Made by a program: the position numbers and the translations under genes. Shown here in pieces: positions 2,353-22,995 of a DNA stretch of 39,980 nt. Position 1 is the first letter of the stretch, and each line of letters starts with the position of its first letter. The DNA lies in the IMG/VR virus record IMGVR_UViG_3300019762_000074, positions 1 to 39,980 of that record; one strand, 5' to 3'. The DNA comes from a virus. The notes beneath the pieces were generated by a model. The model saw nothing but the letters and a program-made list of their open reading frames with translations, had not been told where the DNA came from and did no database searches.

Positions 2353-3562
2353 AAAAATCTTTCACCTCACTTTTAATGATTACATTCTCACTACTAACGT
2401 GCTTAACAAATGACAGCTCTGTCAGATCCTTAATACGACTTAAAGCTACATAAAGCTGACCATGACCAAAACACCCCTTACCGATATGTACAGCTGCCTT
2501 CTCTAGTGTCATACCCTGACTCTTATGTACTGTCACAGCCCACCCAAGCTTAATAGGTAGTTGTGTATAAGACTCTTCAGACCACTTCTTAACACCTCCT
2601 TCAGAGCCCTGATAACCCACCTTATCCCAAGTGTATTGTTTAACCCTGACAGACTTTCCAGAGTCTAACAGGACATCTACACTCTTGTTATCAAACCCTG
2701 TCACGACACCTCTATCACCGTTAACATAACCATCATCAGGATTGTTAGCACACAACAACACCTTACAGCCCACCTTGATAGAAACACTTTCAGGCACTGG
2801 TACAGCTTTACCAAAACCTTTAGTCTTCTTGCAGTGGAACAACTTACTCTTACCTTTCAGTTCATTGTACCAGTGCTTGTTGATCTCATCAGAGTCTTTG
2901 TTGTAGCAGCACAAGTGTAGAGTGTCTGGACAGTTCTTATAGGGTTTTGCTAGGCACTGTAGTTCTTCTAAGGCGTTCTCATAGTCAACACCTTTACGGA
3001 TGTTGTTCAGAAGACTGGTATGGTGGTTGTTAGCTTGACGTTTAACTTCTGTGAGCTCTACAGTCTCAAAGTCCCAACAATTAGCTGAGAATGCAAAAGC
3101 ACTCTTATATTCTGTCTGGAACTTGATAGCCTCCCAACGTTGTACGATAGATTCAAGCTGATAGAAGTCTCCTGTCAGCACTACCTGCTTACCACCGAAA
3201 GGTGAGGAGTTCTTTAAGGCGTGTTTAAGTTTCAAGTCTATCAGGTCTAGGTAGTCTGAACGCAGCATACTCACTTCATCAATGATGATACGTTTAGTAC
3301 TCTTCAGCGCTTGTAGGTTCTTAGAGGGGAACTTATATTGATCATTCTCCTTTACACCACTTAAAGGTAGTCCAAAGAAGCTATGACAAGTGACACCTCC
3401 AATGTTGAGTGCTGCAATACCTGTAGGTGCTGCTAGGATTGTGTAGTCATCTGACACTTGATTGATAACAAAACTTTTCCCCACACCACCACCACCTGTC
3501 AGGAATATGTTAGCACCTGACAGGATCTTATCAATAGCTTCTTGTTGCTTTTCAGTGTTCAT
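2336..3562 (-). CDS. Pif1/RecD-like ATP-dependent DNA helicase
   Basis: 408 residues of a superfamily 1 helicase. The Walker A motif GGGGVGKS is at residues 23-30, the Walker B motif IIIDEVSML at about 92-100, and the C-terminal motif VTVHKSQGMTLEKA with GQLYVALSR is typical of UvrD-like domains of RecD/Pif1 and the T4 Dda group. Such enzymes unwind DNA 5' to 3' in replication or recombination. The start is preceded by ACGGAGAAG, the same ribosome-site context as the gene at 3834-4088. It overlaps the downstream helix-turn-helix gene. Confidence 0.93.
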   Translation of the reverse strand: MNTEKQQEAIDKILSGANIFLTGGGGVGKSFVINQVSDDYTILAAPTGIAALNIGGVTCHSFFGLPLSGVKENDQYKFPSKNLQALKSTKRIIIDEVSMLRSDYLDLIDLKLKHALKNSSPFGGKQVVLTGDFYQLESIVQRWEAIKFQTEYKSAFAFSANCWDFETVELTEVKRQANNHHTSLLNNIRKGVDYENALEELQCLAKPYKNCPDTLHLCCYNKDSDEINKHWYNELKGKSKLFHCKKTKGFGKAVPVPESVSIKVGCKVLLCANNPDDGYVNGDRGVVTGFDNKSVDVLLDSGKSVRVKQYTWDKVGYQGSEGGVKKWSEESYTQLPIKLGWAVTVHKSQGMTLEKAAVHIGKGCFGHGQLYVALSRIKDLTELSFVKHVSSENVIIKSEVKDFYGKRY

Positions 3563-3597: not shown

Positions 3598-3837
3598 TCA
3601 CGTATCCCGTGTACTTTTCCTATAAGGCTTAAAAACATCTCTCAGATACAACTCTAACACCTGACACTCTCTATCAAGATCTCCACCACCATCTTTCAGA
3701 GCCTTGTAGTATCCAAAGCTGAGTGTACCATCGTTAATACCATTAATCCACTGTAAACCCATCTCATCAATGTCCTCAAATGACAGTCCAAGAGTAATGA
3801 TATGTCGTGCAAGGTCGTGTACGCTGTTAGGTTTCAG
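3598..3837 (-). CDS. Small protein with probable CTG start
   Basis: An open frame of 79 codons fills what would otherwise be a 270-base gap. It reads as real protein (KPNSVHDLARHIITLGLSFED, then DEMGLQWINGINDGTLSFGYY) and ends at TGA 3598-3600. There is no ATG near its beginning. The first usable codon, CTG at 3837-3835, overlaps the TGA stop of the upstream gene as CTGA, exactly where neighbouring genes have ATGA. An ATG at 3762 would give a 54-residue form. It could use a rare CTG start, arise by -1 frameshift from the upstream gene, or be a decaying gene. No family recognised. Confidence 0.6.
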   Translation of the reverse strand: MKPNSVHDLARHIITLGLSFEDIDEMGLQWINGINDGTLSFGYYKALKDGGGDLDRECQVLELYLRDVFKPYRKSTRDT

Positions 3838-4088
3838 TTTACAACAATTTCCTGTTCGTTTAAATACTTAGCTAACATAACCAGTAGTATATCTAAACCC
3901 CCTTCCTCCACAAAGTGATCATATTCTATTTGACCACCATTAAGTGTCCTTTCAGCAAACTCGATCATGAACTGAAAATCTTCCTTAGTTAAAGGAATAC
4001 CTTTCATAATATGCTGGTAGTCTTTAATAGTTAGTTGTTTGGCAGAGTGACTAGGAACACTCTGAATAAGGTATTTCCAATAACTCAT
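3834..4088 (-). CDS. Hypothetical protein
   Basis: 84 residues starting MSYWKYLIQS, acidic in its second half (FVEEGGLDILLVMLAKYLNEQE). The ribosome site ACGGAGAAG precedes the ATG at normal distance. Its TGA stop overlaps a CTG that may start the next gene. No recognisable domain. Confidence 0.75.
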   Translation of the reverse strand: MSYWKYLIQSVPSHSAKQLTIKDYQHIMKGIPLTKEDFQFMIEFAERTLNGGQIEYDHFVEEGGLDILLVMLAKYLNEQEIVVN

Positions 4089-4137
4089 TTTACTTCTCCG
4101 TAATAAATGTTAGGTTTCATTTTACACCCTTACACCG

Positions 4138-4362
4138 CTAATAGTCATCATAATCGAGCAAAGGTTTACCGGACGCCTTTTGCATCAACTTTAAAGTATC
4201 TCCTAACTCCTCTAAAGATTCACACCAGTCTACATTAACAGGATCTACACTGATATTGCGCTCAACACCATCTGCATAATAGCACTCATGGATGGCGTAT
4301 GTATCAATCACGTTCCCAAATACCTGCACTTTACGTTTCACTACACGGTAATCCCAACTCAT
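4138..4362 (-). CDS. Conserved small phage-type protein (MSWDYRVV family)
   Basis: 74 residues. The opening MSWDYRVVKRK followed by YAIHECYYADG resembles a short protein common in phages and proteobacteria whose function is unknown. It ends DYDDY. GGAG lies seven bases before the ATG, and the ATG overlaps the upstream stop as ATGA, so translation is probably coupled. Confidence 0.8.
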   Translation of the reverse strand: MSWDYRVVKRKVQVFGNVIDTYAIHECYYADGVERNISVDPVNVDWCESLEELGDTLKLMQKASGKPLLDYDDY

Positions 4363-4547
4363 TTCAACACTCCATCTTTCACTAACTTAATGTACTCTTC
4401 AAGGTTTGCTTTCTTCCACTGTCTAACTTTCATAGGTTTATGATCATTAACATGAAAAACCTCACAGTCACACTCAACATACAACACCAGCTTCTTAAAG
4501 ACAAGCCCTTCCTGTACGTGCTTGTAGTTTCCTGTCAGTTTATCCAT
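4359..4547 (-). CDS. Hypothetical small protein
   Basis: About 62 residues, basic, with two Cys as CDC near the middle. Two ATGs compete. The one at 4553 overlaps the upstream stop but lies directly against GAGAGG. The one at 4547 (MDKLTGNYKH) has GAGAGG at a normal spacing of six, so I prefer 4547. Function unknown. Confidence 0.7.
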   Translation of the reverse strand: MDKLTGNYKHVQEGLVFKKLVLYVECDCEVFHVNDHKPMKVRQWKKANLEEYIKLVKDGVLK

Positions 4548-4549
4548 CC

Positions 4550-4957
4550 TCACATCCTCTCAGTCTTTGTAAGTAAGCTTAACAGCTCCTTAGAGAACTG
4601 TCTAGTCTCAGATGCACTCCTAGTATCCTTATAGACACACTTCAAGATATACTGTACACCTTCTGTGGAGTAATGTCCTTTATGGTCATCTTTCATGTAG
4701 TTATTGTAATGACCTATACTATTGAATTCATCACTAAGAGCTTCCAGCACCTTACAGAACCCTTCAGCCTTACGAGTGATCATAGCTTCTGTACACTTGT
4801 GATAAGTTCTCAGAAGCCACTCTTGCTCTGAGTTCTCCTTAACCTGATGTTCAAGCATCTTCTTAGTTGTCTCCAACTGCTCTTTCAGCTTCTCACACTC
4901 TCTGCGAGATTCTTCCAGTTGTCTTTCAAGTGTACTGTTAGATTTCCACATGTTCAT
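4550..4957 (-). CDS. Coiled-coil hypothetical protein
   Basis: 135 residues. The first 45 residues (LERQLEESRRECEKLKEQLE and following) form a clear coiled coil. The rest has scattered Cys and His without an obvious metal site. It overlaps its neighbours on both sides by four bases in a tight leftward operon. Function unknown. Confidence 0.78.
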   Translation of the reverse strand: MNMWKSNSTLERQLEESRRECEKLKEQLETTKKMLEHQVKENSEQEWLLRTYHKCTEAMITRKAEGFCKVLEALSDEFNSIGHYNNYMKDDHKGHYSTEGVQYILKCVYKDTRSASETRQFSKELLSLLTKTERM

Positions 4958-21142: not shown

Positions 21143-22609
21143 ATGGCAACATCTGAAAGAGAAAAGGTTAATGTAGAGATACTTACAGCCACTGAAGAGA
21201 CTATGAATCAGAAGTCTAAGGCTCGTAGGGATCTTGTTGAGAGGATTGACAAGGCAGATTTCAGCAACTTCGACGCTTCTCCTTGGAAAGATCCTAATAC
21301 TATCAGACCAATCCCCGGCAAGCAAGAGCAGTTCATCCTATCGGATTCTGATATAACATTCTTTATCGGTGGTAGTGGTACGGGTAAGTCTGAGGCGATG
21401 GTCTTAGATCAACTACAGCATGTTAAAGATCCTAACTATGAGTCTATTACGTTCCGTAGGACTACTAAGTCACTGAAAGGTGCTGGTGGTATCTTTAATA
21501 AGGCTGGTAGGGTCTATGAGCGTCTAGGTGCTGAGAAGAAGCTGCAAGATTTGATGTATACGTGGCCTTCAGGTGCTACGGCACGATACTCTCACTTGGA
21601 GCACGGTTTAGCAACAGCAGAAGCTAATCACGCCGGTCTCGAATACGCCAGAATCTACTATGATGAATTACATACTTTCGATAAAGACAGCTTCATGTTC
21701 ATGCTTTCTCGACTACGCTCTAATGCCGATGTAGATGCAGCTGTAAAAGCTACTATGAACCCTACACCTAAGGAGACTATCGGGGGTTGGATACATGAGT
21801 TCCTAGAAGGGTTCTATATTGATGAGTACGGATATCCTATTGAAGAGAATAGTGGTAAGAAGAGGTATTTTATCACAGACGATAATGGTACGTTAATCTG
21901 GGCAGACCACCCAGAAGAACTACAGGCACAGTATGGGTATGATTGCGCCCCTATGTCGTTCACAGCTATTACAAGCTGCATCATAGACAACCCTGTTCTT
22001 ATGTCCCTACAGCCACGTTACCTACCGTCTCTTAAGAACATGGGACGTATTGCTAGGGAAAGATTACTCTACTGTTGTTGGAATGTATCACCGAAAGGGG
22101 CAGGTTACTTCCAGAGGGAATGGATTGAATATGTTGACGGTAAGGATCTACCAAAGCTTAATAAGGTTATCAGGGCTTACGATCTAGCAGCTAGTGTCAA
22201 GAGTGAGATCAATTCAGACCCAGACTGGACAGCTGGTGTGAAGATAGGCCTAGGTGAGGATGGTTGCTTCTATGTAATGAATGCTAAAGAGATTCTAGCA
22301 CGACCTGCTGGTGTTGCTAAGTTGATACAAGAAACTGCTGTTATGGATGGTAAGAACGTACCTATAGGAATCCCTCAAGATGCCGGTGCGGGTGGTCTTA
22401 TCCAGTTTGAGCACTACGCTAAACCTCTTATTTTGAAGGGTTATAAGGTTAAGAAGGCAAAGACCCGTAAAGGTAAGCTTGAAAGGTTTTCAGGATTCTC
22501 TAATGCCGCTGAAAATGGCATGGTTAAGATTGTAAAAGGGGACTGGAACGATAAGTATATCACACAGCTGGAAAACTTTGATCCAGATCGTAAAAGGCAA
22601 CATGACGAT
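21143..22609 (+). CDS. terL: Terminase large subunit, exon 1
   Basis: 489 codons. The packaging ATPase has Walker A GGSGTGKS at residues 76-83 and Walker B IYYDE at 171-175, with a coupling motif TMNPTP later. The nuclease domain begins at VIRAYDLAASV (motif I Asp). The exon ends ...KRQHDD, at the conserved acidic motif III, and unspliced RNA meets TAA at once (22610-22612). The remaining motif is in exon 2 (22879-22995); the joined protein has 527 residues. GTAGGAGG precedes the ATG. Confidence 0.94.
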
Positions 22610-22878
22610 TAACTGACAGGTCGTCAATAAACCCATTGAATTGCTGGAACATCTCTCAGAGACTATCAGCAGCTAAGATACTTAATAGGTATAAAGTTCA
22701 ACGGCCATCGAAAGCACACTAATAGTGCCACTATTAGTGGAAGCGAGTAGAGTAGACTGTAAGTGCAGTCGAAGCGGTGGGGTGCAGTTATGCACATGAT
22801 ATGGTCTGATCTTACAGGCGACTGTAAGCAGCTCTTAGAGAGCGGGATAGTATTAACGACACTATCTGAACACAAATG
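22610..22878 (+). ncRNA. Group I self-splicing intron in terL
   Basis: 269 bases, no open frame. P1: exon TGACGAT (22603-22609) pairs with GTCGTCA (22620-22626), giving the U-G pair at the 5' splice site. P3: CCCATTG 22632-22638 with CGGTGGG 22775-22781. P4: TGCTG 22642-22646 with CAGCA 22667-22671. P5: TCTC 22652-22655 with GAGA 22659-22662. P6: ATACTT 22678-22683 with AGGTAT 22687-22692. P7: GGCCAT 22703-22708 with ATGGTC 22801-22806. P7.1: CACTAATAG 22717-22725 with CTATTAGTG 22731-22739. P7.2: GACTG 22755-22759 with CAGTC 22766-22770. P8: GTGCA 22782-22786 with TGCAC 22791-22795. P9: CTTACAG 22811-22817 with CTGTAAG 22822-22828. The intron ends in G (22878). The P7.1/P7.2 pair points to subgroup IA. 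Confidence 0.95.
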
Positions 22879-22995
22879 CTAGTCGATGCAACATCCGATG
22901 CCTACAACTTCCTAGTATCTGGCAGAAAGCTTCCAGACAACTTCAAGTTATCCATGCCAGCGGAACTAGGAAAAACTAATCCTTTTAACTTCTAA
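22879..22995 (+). CDS. terL: Terminase large subunit, exon 2
   Basis: 38 codons reading LVDATSDAYNFLVSGRKLP onward to TAA (22993-22995), with no start codon of their own. Joined in frame after ...KRQHDD they give HDDLVDATSDA, the usual motif III of large-terminase nucleases (D/E-x-VDAxxDA). Splicing is therefore needed to complete the nuclease active site. Confidence 0.92.
   Translation, partial: LVDATSDAYNFLVSGRKLPDNFKLSMPAELGKTNPFNF

Follow-up and report, generated by a model that had tools for sequence, protein, structure and literature searches.

Group I introns in terL, the gene for the terminase large subunit, are already published, and for one of them that lacks an endonuclease gene splicing has been shown. 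The terL intron of Vibrio phage ICP1 has no endonuclease ORF inside; its splicing was demonstrated by RNA-seq and RT-PCR, and a homing endonuclease gene adjoins the intron in an arrangement of collaborative homing (PMC10448857). Group I introns in terL are also reported for the Bastillevirinae SIOphi, phiAGATE and Moonbeam; for the first two, splicing was demonstrated either in vitro or in the infected cell, and spliced terL of phiAGATE appears after the midpoint of infection (PMC11878797). In Lactobacillus phage LL-H (NC_009554), terL is likewise annotated as two pieces around an intron.

Here we analyzed a record (the window; 39,980 bases) of a tailed, uncultured virus that infects bacteria. 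Its terL very probably carries an endonuclease-free group I intron that lies at a homing site just behind the HDD codons, splices during infection and arrived by homing. Like ICP1, the window has an endonuclease-free intron in a TerL homolog, but the ICP1 intron lies in the Walker A region and not at the nuclease site. The Bastillevirinae introns are of the same class but interrupt a different TerL family (phrog_675). LL-H, named as precedent in the original prediction, does possess a terL intron, but this one contains HNH ORF168 and follows exon 1 at about residue 137, well away from the nuclease motif; ICP1 and the Bastillevirinae are the closer parallels. Pseudomonas phages KIL1-5 (NC_030934) share the site of the window (between GAC GAT and xVDATSDA), the guide pairing and the group I core, but their intron has 770 nt and an HNH ORF, and TerL is about 41% identical. 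Finally, the intron in Drulisvirus gp19 (maturase B; e.g. OQ503491, PV872879) shows the guide GUCGUC of the window against exon GACGAU and a similar core, but sits behind the Asp-Asp of PDD/IET (slashes within motifs mark introns) in a different TerL family, probably at Walker B. We found no paper in the open-licence literature describing an intron at the HDD site, and the present case adds a member to the published group.

Results

The ORF at 21143-22612 encodes the terminase large subunit, and its stop codon lies directly behind RKRQHDD. The gene is divided as follows.

terL exon 1, 21143..22609, plus strand: 489 codons ending in ...RKRQHDD; product matches Terminase_6N, Terminase_6C and phrog_979
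Predicted group I intron, 22610..22878, plus strand: 269 nt, no ORF; first UAA is an in-frame stop, last base is G; RF00028 match and covariation
terL exon 2, 22879..22995, plus strand: LVDATSDAYNFLVSGRKLPDNFKLSMPAELGKTNPFNF plus stop; coding 22879-22992, then TAA

Exon 2 is open over 38 codons and keeps VDATSDAYN. Excision of 22610-22878 fuses HDD to LVDATSDAYNFLVSGRKLPDNFKLSMPAELGKTNPFNF and restores the host frame. The Terminase_6C score is 54.4 bits for unspliced and 70.7 bits for spliced TerL, a gain of 16 bits; the match to the 155-position profile stops at 143 in the former and at 153 in the latter. This bears out the claim that joining HDD to LVDATSDA restores the C-terminus. Judged from the sequence, the insertion point is between ...QHDD and LVDATSDAYNF..., immediately behind the HDD triplet.

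The catalytic residues of the G20c terminase are H427, D428 and D429 (PMC5389553). By analogy, the HDD of the window would represent the catalytic residues, encoded by the three codons that close exon 1 and kept in the unspliced product. This assignment leans on G20c because a search by sequence for a solved structure of a relative gave no credible match. The unspliced 489-aa protein, ending at the catalytic Asp, would then probably be nuclease-dead, not motif-less. The original prediction had placed the intron within nuclease motif III. The location at the catalytic HDD stands, but the insertion follows the triplet; the associated claim that unspliced RNA yields a product without its last nuclease motif is not upheld on the G20c analogy, by which HDD stays in exon 1 and only the segment behind it is lost.

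Could TerL simply end at HDD, with the downstream frame open by chance or belonging to another gene? An annotation program would indeed close TerL at 22612, as happened in the KIL1 record. However, homologs are unbroken through the site: intron-less genes read HDDFVDSTSDAYNW (uncultured locus L004), HDDQVDATSDAF (LPML1) and KDDQVDATSDAF (EC6). Among isolate TerLs sampled down the match ranking, the alignment of 56/60 extended at least as far as residue 499. The gene was continuous through the site in 78 of 80 uncultured loci; one of the others reached its contig end and one had an intron, although the selection of these loci favours uninterrupted genes and the counts are not an unbiased frequency. 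Homologs ending at HDD had been named beforehand as the observation that would overturn the prediction; those compared carry on through xVDATSDA, and a TerL ending at HDD was ruled out. Together with the Rfam match and the covariation described below, this makes a gene without an intron hardly credible.

A covariance-model search, proposed as a check by the original prediction, was run on the whole window using cmscan and matched RF00028 (group I intron) at 22551-22828 with 49.7 bits (E 7.5e-10; E 9.4e-12 for the same match on a 501-nt stretch). No further Rfam family and no other intron was found in the window at E 0.1. The curated gathering score of RF00028 is 50 bits, 0.3 bit above the score of the window intron, which is therefore overlooked by a default annotation run. 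The Rfam alignment puts P1 too far upstream; P1 is actually formed by exon GACGAU and GUCGUC at 22620-22625. Splice sites were set by comparison with intron-less homologs and with introns at the same site, which are found in the uncultured loci L002 and L085 and in KIL1. As foreseen, P1 contains a U-G pair at the 5' splice site (the wobble U22609.G22620) and the intron ends in G (G22878), as do the introns of L002, KIL1 and L085. No ORF lies inside 22610-22878, and neither the GIY-YIG model, the HNH_3 model nor the L002 protein detected an endonuclease gene in the window, a contig that is itself a fragment. For these reasons, we do not class the window intron as self-mobile.

In agreement with the original prediction, P3, P4, P5, P6, P7, P7.1, P7.2, P8, P9 and two 3' hairpins can all be written as contiguous helices. 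Percentages refer to cells paired in an alignment of seven introns.

P1, 22604..22625, plus strand: 22604-22609 (GACGAU, exon) with 22620-22625 (GUCGUC, guide); same pairing in L002, KIL1 and L085
P10 side of guide, 22618..22619, plus strand: AG with C22879-U22880; 2 bp only
P3 5' strand, 22632..22638, plus strand: partner 22775-22781; 95.2% paired, two-sided changes
P4 enclosing P5, 22642..22671, plus strand: P4 22642-22647/22666-22671; P5 22652-22655/22659-22662
P6 and P6a, 22672..22697, plus strand: P6 22672-22673/22696-22697; P6a 22678-22681/22689-22692
P7 5' strand GGCCAU, guanosine-binding helix, 22703..22708, plus strand: partner 22801-22806; 97.6% paired
P7.1 and P7.2, 22717..22770, plus strand: P7.1 22717-22726/22730-22739; P7.2 22755-22759/22766-22770
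P3 3' strand, 22775..22781, plus strand: from the seven-intron alignment
P8, 22782..22795, plus strand: 22782-22786/22791-22795; aligns poorly across the set (67.7%)
P7 3' strand AUGGUC, 22801..22806, plus strand: from the seven-intron alignment
P9, 22811..22828, plus strand: 22811-22817/22822-22828; 100% paired, five pairs changed on both sides
P9.1, 22831..22843, plus strand: 22831-22835/22839-22843, 3-nt loop; read from the sequence, outside the covariation count
P9.2, 22846..22866, plus strand: 22846-22851/22861-22866; read from the sequence; similar hairpins in L002, L085 and L004

The alignment comprised the introns of the window, L002, KIL1, Drulisvirus gp19, L004 (Walker A), the uncultured locus L003 (Walker B) and a phiKZ-type phage. 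The helices of the window were scored on it, with 500 shuffles and sliding of the partner strand as controls. Overall, 91.2% of cells were paired, compared to a shuffled mean of 71.8% and to 34-45% in the slid controls. Two-sided changes were seen in 33 pairs versus 17 in shuffles, and none of the 500 shuffles reached as high a value. Support was strongest for P3, P4, P6, P7 and P9, each of which showed two-sided changes, and the P3-P8/P4-P6 core typical of group I introns, including the P7 pseudoknot, is present; P4 was paired in 100% of cells and had changed on both sides in four pairs. A possible counterpart of the P7.1/P7.2 extension of group IA introns lies between P7 and P3. Within it P7.2 covaries; P7.1 is present in the window alone among the seven introns and therefore lacks comparative support. 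The E-value, the covariation and the slid controls rule out a chance fold. Judged by its sequence, the element in terL is a group I intron, and the predicted ORF-less intron of 269 nt is thereby confirmed.

The fold has two oddities. The P7 strands of the window had been read as a compensating change. This holds for pair 4, where U-A of the reference GACUAU/AUAGUC is replaced by C-G, a true compensating change, but not for pair 2, which shows a one-sided change to G.U in the window and is A-U in all six relatives. We take pair 2 to be the equivalent of A265-U310 in the guanosine site of the Tetrahymena ribozyme; because of this location, the G.U may weaken splicing. A search for other introns with a GGCCAU P7 strand gave 25 pattern matches, seven with ATGGTC or ATGGCC downstream; the three inspected were not intron-like. 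The second oddity is P10, which has 3-5 bp in the sister copies (CAAGU/ACUUG in L085, UAUGU/ACAUG in L002, CAG/CUG in KIL1) and 2 bp in the window (CU/AG). In L002, KIL1 and L085 the P10 guide sequence varies along with the downstream exon, a co-change that supports the predicted 3' splice site of these copies; the P10 of the window is the weakest. Given the G.U and the 2-bp P10, splicing in the window may be slow or dependent on help.

Carried further, a G.U confined to the window, a P10 shorter than in all sisters and the missing ORF could mark a decaying intron with a still recognisable fold, in which splicing is cut and either little or no full-length terminase is made or another nuclease is used. 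Yet the remaining core helices are intact and covary, and exon 2 has stayed open with its conserved motif. Moreover, terL is essential in tailed phages, so that selection should remove a dead intron. We consider decay very improbable and infer that the intron splices.

We compared the window with other alleles of the site. L002, whose TerL exon 1 is 87% identical to that of the window, has its intron at exactly the nucleotide used in the window; this intron measures 990 nt and holds an ORF of 240 aa that matches phrog_2081, HNH endonuclease. This ORF sits between the P9.1 arms CACUCUC and GAGAGUG; in the window, P9.1 reads as closed by its 3-nt loop. The 770-nt intron of KIL1-5 occupies the same site, and the HNH ORFs of KIL1 and L002 are 59% identical over their shared length. 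L085 has a 228-nt intron at this site with no ORF and no immediate stop. RF00028 scores of these introns (L002 78.1, KIL1 68.9, L085 85.5 bits) all pass the cut-off. Exact-pattern scans of viral_contigs for more copies returned L002 only; L085, the fourth lineage, came from a profile search. The idea of a relic free of mobile genes is not supported, as related phages show this site with an ORF-containing intron, with an ORF-less one (L085 being a second such case) or empty.

In the KIL1 record (NC_030934.1, our L031), the intron lies at 3786-4555 and is unannotated as a terL intron, as in KIL2-5. The annotated TerL stops at the TAA of the intron, and the last exon (36 residues, QVDATSDA...FAFYR) is missed. 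The paper describing the KIL phages does not mention splicing or homing. The 12-kb contig of L085 has three more group I intron matches, including 2946-3160; one is in the gene after terL, which is probably the portal gene. Two tRNA genes lie 5' of terS in L002, L003 and L004; Rfam detected none in the window, the stretch upstream of its terS (before 20394) included.

When the C-terminal domains of 87 TerLs were placed in a tree, at least three gains or losses of the HDD-site intron were required, and this minimum was stable across the bootstrap range. KIL1 is placed beside the near-identical, intron-less L074, L077 and L078, while the window and L002 stand beside L004 and L069, both intron-less at the HDD site. 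As at least three changes are needed and occupied copies are found beside empty ones, the intron was gained or lost repeatedly. Next to the intron, the 5' exons of the window and L002 are identical at 23/25 positions, compared with 16/25 and 18/25 in the comparisons with L004. With so few bases, this is no more than suggestive of co-conversion.

Further introns were seen in related terminase genes. The terL gene of L004 has two more ORF-less group I introns (3157-3413 and 3698-3956), and so have L005, L006 and L008; the sites in these four loci are Walker A (GG/AAGSGKS) and just before Walker B (I/YFDE). L003 has the Walker B intron without the Walker A one, and the truncated L007 shows a Walker B intron. 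Between terS and terL of L004 (1939-2964) and L005, a GIY-YIG-like ORF (weak, below the Pfam cut-off) adjoins the Walker A intron, a layout that resembles ICP1. A 36% identical relative of this ORF is found in L003, which lacks the Walker A intron, and a fragment in L008; none was found beside the Walker A intron of L006. Breaks in Walker A, the motif from which TerL homology begins, are also seen in ICP1 (L067, about 1240-1490) and in Rheinheimera phage Barba6A (L068, around 1500); the Barba6A record seems to be intron-split, with the terminase annotation covering the downstream part alone. The break of LPML1 is near Walker B, those of vequintaviruses at FDEG and before DNPV, and those of KIL1 and A110a before DNPV. 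In Drulisvirus and similar records (L037-L040; about 2007-2395 in L038), a group I intron interrupts gp19 at PDD/IET; the annotation presents this gene as a pair of terminase pieces. The terL introns tend to lie in conserved motifs, in keeping with the target choice of homing endonucleases (PMC3984707).

Discussion

We propose that the transcript made during infection folds and that guanosine bound in P7 would attack after U22609. The freed U22609 would then attack after G22878, joining the exons to encode a 527-aa terminase. Unspliced RNA would be translated up to the UAA of the intron, giving the 489-aa protein with the catalytic Asp as its last residue. The intron may have arrived by homing, with an HNH endonuclease supplied from the P9.1 loop of sister copies such as L002 and KIL1 or in trans, and the window copy would have lost its endonuclease ORF or never carried one.

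Slow splicing could also serve regulation, timing a switch from the nuclease-dead packaging ATPase to the full terminase and delaying DNA cutting to late infection. The immediate UAA does define a truncated product ending at HDD, and the timing of spliced phiAGATE terL would fit such a delay (PMC11878797). However, near relatives do without the intron, which is therefore dispensable, and the same-site intron of L085 has no immediate stop. A regulatory intron is thus quite improbable, and we favour an endonuclease-free homing intron that is removed during infection.

The guide GUCGUC targets GAC GAT, the codons of Asp-Asp. It is conceivable, if rather unlikely, that one intron lineage thereby invaded packaging motors at two catalytic Asp-Asp sites that are not equivalent, behind HDD in the window, L002, KIL1 and L085 and behind PDD in Drulisvirus gp19. 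If true, such introns would spread by RNA complementarity, through ectopic homing or reverse splicing, beyond homing between homologous alleles.

For the KIL phages, our data mean that terL is annotated too short. More generally, an allelic series exists at one nucleotide beside a catalytic aspartate, whose alleles are empty, lack an ORF (228 and 269 nt) or carry an HNH ORF (770 and 990 nt), one of them in isolated phages. This series makes the gain and loss of endonuclease genes, as well as the cost of an active-site intron, directly testable.
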